From: Deltaproteobacteria bacterium
GTDB taxonomy: Bacteria > Desulfobacterota > Syntrophorhabdia > Syntrophorhabdales > Syntrophorhabdaceae
Direction: 5' to 3'
DNA length: 50,274 nucleotides
NCBI GenBank assembly: GCA_029777945.1
Contig: JAKORG010000039.1
Span: 25,814 to 76,087, forward strand
Positions 30,021 to 30,360 of this stretch are shown here, piece by piece. The position numbers and the translations under genes were made by a program. The first letter of the stretch is position 1; each line of letters opens with the position of its first letter. The notes below the pieces were generated by a model. It was given only the letters and a program-made list of their open reading frames with translations. It had not been told where the DNA came from and did not search any database.

Positions 30021-30335
30021 TTAACAACTACATGAACTGCCGCATCCACCCTTTTTTGAAAGTTCAGATTGCACCATAAAACCACTGCCCATTGGAGAAT
30101 GAACAAAATCAATAAATATCGGTTTTACCTGGTTAAAAAGCTCTTTTTCTATTAAAAAACTCACTCCTTTCTCATTAAATACCTCATCGTTTTCCCCTGG
30201 CTCATCCAGAGCCATTCCAAGCGTTGGGCCAGATCAGCCACCCTCCATCAACATAACCCTCACTGAATGGGGTCCCTCTTTTCCTTCGAGAAACTACTTA
30301 ATTACCTCTGCTGTAGCATCTGATACGGTAAACAT
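30021..30335 (-). CDS. HesB-like selenoprotein (A-type Fe-S carrier family) with in-frame TGA and TAG
   Basis: Read through both stops, this is a 104-residue HesB/IscA-related protein. It begins MFTVSDATAEVIK, then TAG (30294-30296), FLEGKEGPHSVRVMLMEGG, then TGA (30234-30236), SGPTLGMALDEPGENDEVF, and ends GGCGSSCSC. The TGA falls exactly at the conserved first Cys of the A-type carrier motif, where the described HesB-like selenoprotein family has Sec. A SECIS-like hairpin lies at the right distance (30198-30214). The TAG at codon 14 is not explained by Sec and may be a nonsense mutation or a sequence error. The ATG follows GGAGGAT. The family is thought to act in Fe-S cluster assembly. If TAG is real the gene is broken unless translation restarts downstream. 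Confidence 0.72.
30198..30214 (-). promoter_or_regulatory. bacterial SECIS-like hairpin for the HesB-like selenoprotein
   Basis: In the mRNA, TGGCTC (20-25 bases after the TGA) pairs perfectly with GAGCCA, with apical loop TGGAT. The loop guanines lie 27-28 bases after the TGA, inside the window known for bacterial SECIS elements (SelB binds a stem-loop with a G near the top of the loop). It is within the coding region, as expected in bacteria. Confidence 0.6.
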
Positions 30336-30360
30336 AAATCCTCCTAATTTATTTTTGGTC

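Follow-up and report, generated by a model that had tools for sequence, protein, structure and literature searches.

A probable HesB/IscA-like selenoprotein gene of a known family, with a covarying SECIS-type hairpin and an in-frame TAG ahead of its selenocysteine codon

The stretch of DNA analysed here (hereafter the window, 50,274 nucleotides) contains a HesB/IscA-like selenoprotein frame of 104 codons, read on the minus strand and preceded by a Shine-Dalgarno sequence (Table 1). Two in-frame stop codons interrupt it, a TAG and, further 3', a TGA that falls on a position where related proteins have a cysteine. A preliminary description had located this TGA correctly and given its context as MEGG-stop-SGPTLGMALDEP, leaving the strand unstated. 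With selenocysteine (Sec) in place of the stop, the residues read MEGG-U-SGPTLGMALDEP, and sequence typical of the family lies on both sides of the TGA. The open reading frame that remains 3' of the TGA runs from ATG41 to TAA and encodes 64 residues, the fragment that had been anticipated. Conservation of the gene neighbourhood ends with the nearest genera, so the neighbouring genes offer no functional clue.

Table 1. Coordinates of the features of the frame in the window and of the two further HesB-like frames of the same genome.
Feature	Contig	Position	Strand	Remarks
HesB/IscA-like selenoprotein frame	window	30021..30335	minus	ATG to TAA; TAG is codon 14, TGA is codon 34
Shine-Dalgarno AGGAGG	window	30340..30345	minus	4 nt 5' of the ATG; duplex energy with the anti-SD -9.9 kcal/mol
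In-frame TAG, codon 14	window	30294..30296	minus	Sense codon in every relative examined, CAG in the same-genus one
TGA predicted to be read as selenocysteine, codon 34	window	30234..30236	minus	First conserved Cys of IscA/HesB proteins
Bacterial SECIS-type hairpin TGGCTC-TGGAT-GAGCCA	window	30198..30214	minus	20-36 nt 3' of the TGA
C-terminal CGSSCSC	window	30024..30044	minus	Aligns to the Cys motif at the C-terminus of IscA-type proteins
HesB-like TGA frame, intact	C81	28199-27915	minus	SECIS-type hairpin kept
HesB-like TGA frame, broken	C81	32999-32718	minus	Single frameshift at an A run near the start; hairpin kept

We compared the frame, with both the TAG and the TGA read through in the query, to protein family profiles. 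It matched the NCBIfam family NF038090 (IscA_HesB_Se) over profile positions 1-101 of 101, at 110.8 bits against a cut-off of 85. TIGR01911, the family that had been proposed for it, gave 42.6 bits and did not reach its curated cut-off of 66.35, and Pfam PF01521 scored slightly below its cut-off. The claim of full family similarity on both sides of the TGA holds for the 3' side, but for the 5' side only when the TAG is read through as well. The Sec codon replaces the first conserved Cys, and the residues U34-S-G-P match UxGP, the motif under which, together with TIGR01911, HesB-like selenoproteins have been entered (PMC13188914). Such proteins were already catalogued in 2006, Deltaproteobacteria included (PMC1794560), and the gene is a further member of this known family. 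In a sequence comparison with solved structures, for which the query was the intact same-genus protein with Cys substituted for Sec, 1nwb was matched with an E value of 2.7e-9 and IscA (1r94, 1s98) with E values of 6e-7 to 8e-7, almost over the full length. Sec34 was aligned to the first Cys of 1nwb and CGSSCSC to its C-terminal Cys motif. The fold of the protein can be deduced from this similarity to IscA.

The TGA is conserved among relatives. We searched 99 genomes (the source genome and 98 relatives) and found a HesB-like match in 66 of them; a copy with exactly one internal TGA was present in 35 of the 38 relatives of the same bacterial family, probably Syntrophorhabdaceae, at an identical position in those whose copies were translated. 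The preliminary description had named relatives with a plain stop at this site as the outcome at odds with its reading; what the relatives carry there is TGA. Among the matches listed, stops other than TGA were absent, except in one paralogue on contig C81 of the source genome and apart from the TAG of the studied copy. Homologues with Cys at the Sec site were considered as additional proof and rejected: the four translated family matches that have no TGA carry Trp or Tyr at the site and belong to a different paralogue, and therefore do not form Sec/Cys pairs. This HesB-like paralogue occurs in several relatives and is also devoid of the C-terminal CGSSCSC, and it has probably ceased to be a conventional metal carrier. 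The hairpin of the TGA-less paralogue is weaker, with 2-5 of the 6 pairs, and is not the predicted fold.

The hairpin downstream of the TGA had been described as a perfect 6-bp stem with the loop TGGAT, and it proved to be conserved and to covary beyond chance. In 30 TGA-containing sequences (the studied copy and 29 relatives), 176 of the 180 stem cells were paired, compared with 124 ± 5 when synonymous codons were shuffled (maximum 138 in 2000 trials). The covariation score, calculated over 22 distinct sequences, was 0.231 vs 0.162 in the shuffled controls and at most 0.085 in slid controls. The shuffles exaggerate the significance because the sequences are related; the slid controls preserve this kinship. 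Compensatory changes exchange T-A for C-G (GCT..GAG to GCC..GGG) and C-G for T-A, such that codons covary across the loop: GCT (Ala) occurs with GAG (Glu), GCC (Ala) with GGG (Gly) and GTT (Val) with GAA (Glu). Altogether, these patterns are good evidence that the RNA hairpin itself is selected for.

The source genome (2.40 Mb in 102 contigs, 97.45% complete) contains the full set of selenocysteine genes, as had been expected of it. Profile searches detected selA (589 bits), selB (359 bits) and two selD genes (376 and 353 bits), and a tRNA-Sec with the anticodon TCA was found at 69.9 bits; SelA was also present in all 10 relatives tested. The two selD genes lie on contigs C60 and C81; one has an in-frame TGA and likely encodes a selenoprotein itself, while the other has no such stop. 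Because the TGA is conserved, the hairpin covaries and the sel genes are present, SelB-dependent insertion of Sec at codon 34 is well supported for the intact relatives. The identity of the gene as a HesB-like selenoprotein, which the preliminary description had advanced, is likewise supported by the NF038090 score above cut-off, the conserved TGA, the covarying SECIS and the sel gene set.

The assembled sequence of the studied copy does not, however, support an intact, expressible gene. The preliminary description had overlooked the TAG at codon 14, because of which the frame is not open from the start to the Sec codon. This failure concerns the intactness of the copy and leaves the family assignment unaffected. 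Where the studied copy has TAG, the codons of relatives other than the same-genus one specify Q, R, K, E, G, A, T or D. TAG most likely acts as a stop in the source genome, because PylB and PylS matched only below their curated cut-offs, no CUA anticodon was present among the tRNAs found in this 97% complete assembly, RF1 (prfA) is present, and TAG terminates 5 of the 47 mechanically called ORFs of the window. Pyrrolysine and a suppressor tRNA were rejected as explanations of the TAG on the first two of these observations. The assembled gene is therefore truncated ahead of the Sec codon.

Apart from the TAG, the gene is under strong purifying selection. Between the studied and the same-genus copies, dN is 0.079 and dS 1.09 (dN/dS ~0.07), and the nonsynonymous differences from the outgroup G012 amount to 30.8 and 31.5, respectively, with no acceleration in the lineage of the studied copy. 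Given this ratio and the equal outgroup distances, which a long-dead gene would not display, the TAG is a very recent lesion, a strain variant or polymorphism, or an assembly error. When genome contigs were searched for conspecific genomes, the matches were limited to the same-genus MAG (84%) and to distant ones. Two more HesB-like TGA frames lie ~4.5 kb apart on contig C81 (Table 1), and thus two of the three copies in the source genome have one lesion each, in both cases 5' of the TGA.

Close to an even chance goes to the TAG being an error of sequencing or assembly, or else the base of a minority strain, in a selenoprotein gene that is intact. A single transition separates it from CAG, the codon of the same-genus copy, purifying selection is strong and shows no acceleration, and the frameshift at an A run that breaks the second C81 copy is a typical assembly error. 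Consensus substitution errors are, however, rarer than indels, and the conserved genes that we searched (selA, selB, one selD and prfA) had no unexpected stops. Nearly half of our belief rests instead on a real, recent nonsense mutation, with which the gene of this strain would be dead or on its way to loss, a state that the intact C81 paralogue may make tolerable. That paralogue has its own TGA and hairpin, and the recurrence of lesions among the HesB-like copies of this genome points the same way; but it is only 46% identical and may be no substitute, and the rest of the studied gene is free of decay, its Shine-Dalgarno sequence, start and SECIS all being intact. Decoding or bypass of the TAG, whether by pyrrolysine, a suppressor tRNA or a restart at GTG25/ATG28-30, seems improbable: the gene has apparently been constrained until the present and an SD-like sequence precedes GTG25/ATG28-30 (-6.3 to -6.7 kcal/mol), but a restart product would be deprived of the first helix, the relatives examined have no stop at codon 14, and the evidence on TAG decoding given above argues against the other two routes. 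Double read-through, of TAG 14 by a putative suppressor and of TGA 34 by the Sec machinery, is very improbable.

We thus conclude that the locus very probably holds a HesB/IscA-like selenoprotein gene of the known family, with hairpin-directed Sec at position 34 and with translation stopped at codon 14 in this copy. In the intact form, SelB and Sec-tRNA would recognise the hairpin after the UGA, and Sec34 would be inserted where A-type Fe-S carriers have their first metal-binding Cys. By analogy with IscA, C98, C102 and C104 would provide the remaining thiol ligands, and Sec34 together with these C-terminal thiols may coordinate either a metal or an Fe-S cluster. In the copy studied here, the one base that differs at codon 14 (TAG here, CAG in the same-genus copy) would halt translation before the Sec codon is reached, whether it arose as a very recent nonsense mutation, a strain variant or an assembly error.

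A known selenoprotein family of still unsettled function thereby gains a group whose SECIS covaries and is well supported. Gene callers would split the studied copy twice, and the TAG is a caution to check a frame for further stops before a TGA read-through is claimed. The frame matches the NF038090 family over its full length, and the extra in-frame TAG is peculiar to the studied copy. With the TIGR01911 HesB-like (selenoprotein) family it has the superfamily in common, but its score is below the threshold of that profile. Relative to IscA and the A-type Fe-S carriers, the difference lies at the first metal-binding position, which is Cys there and would be Sec here, next to a C-terminus that reads CGSSCSC.
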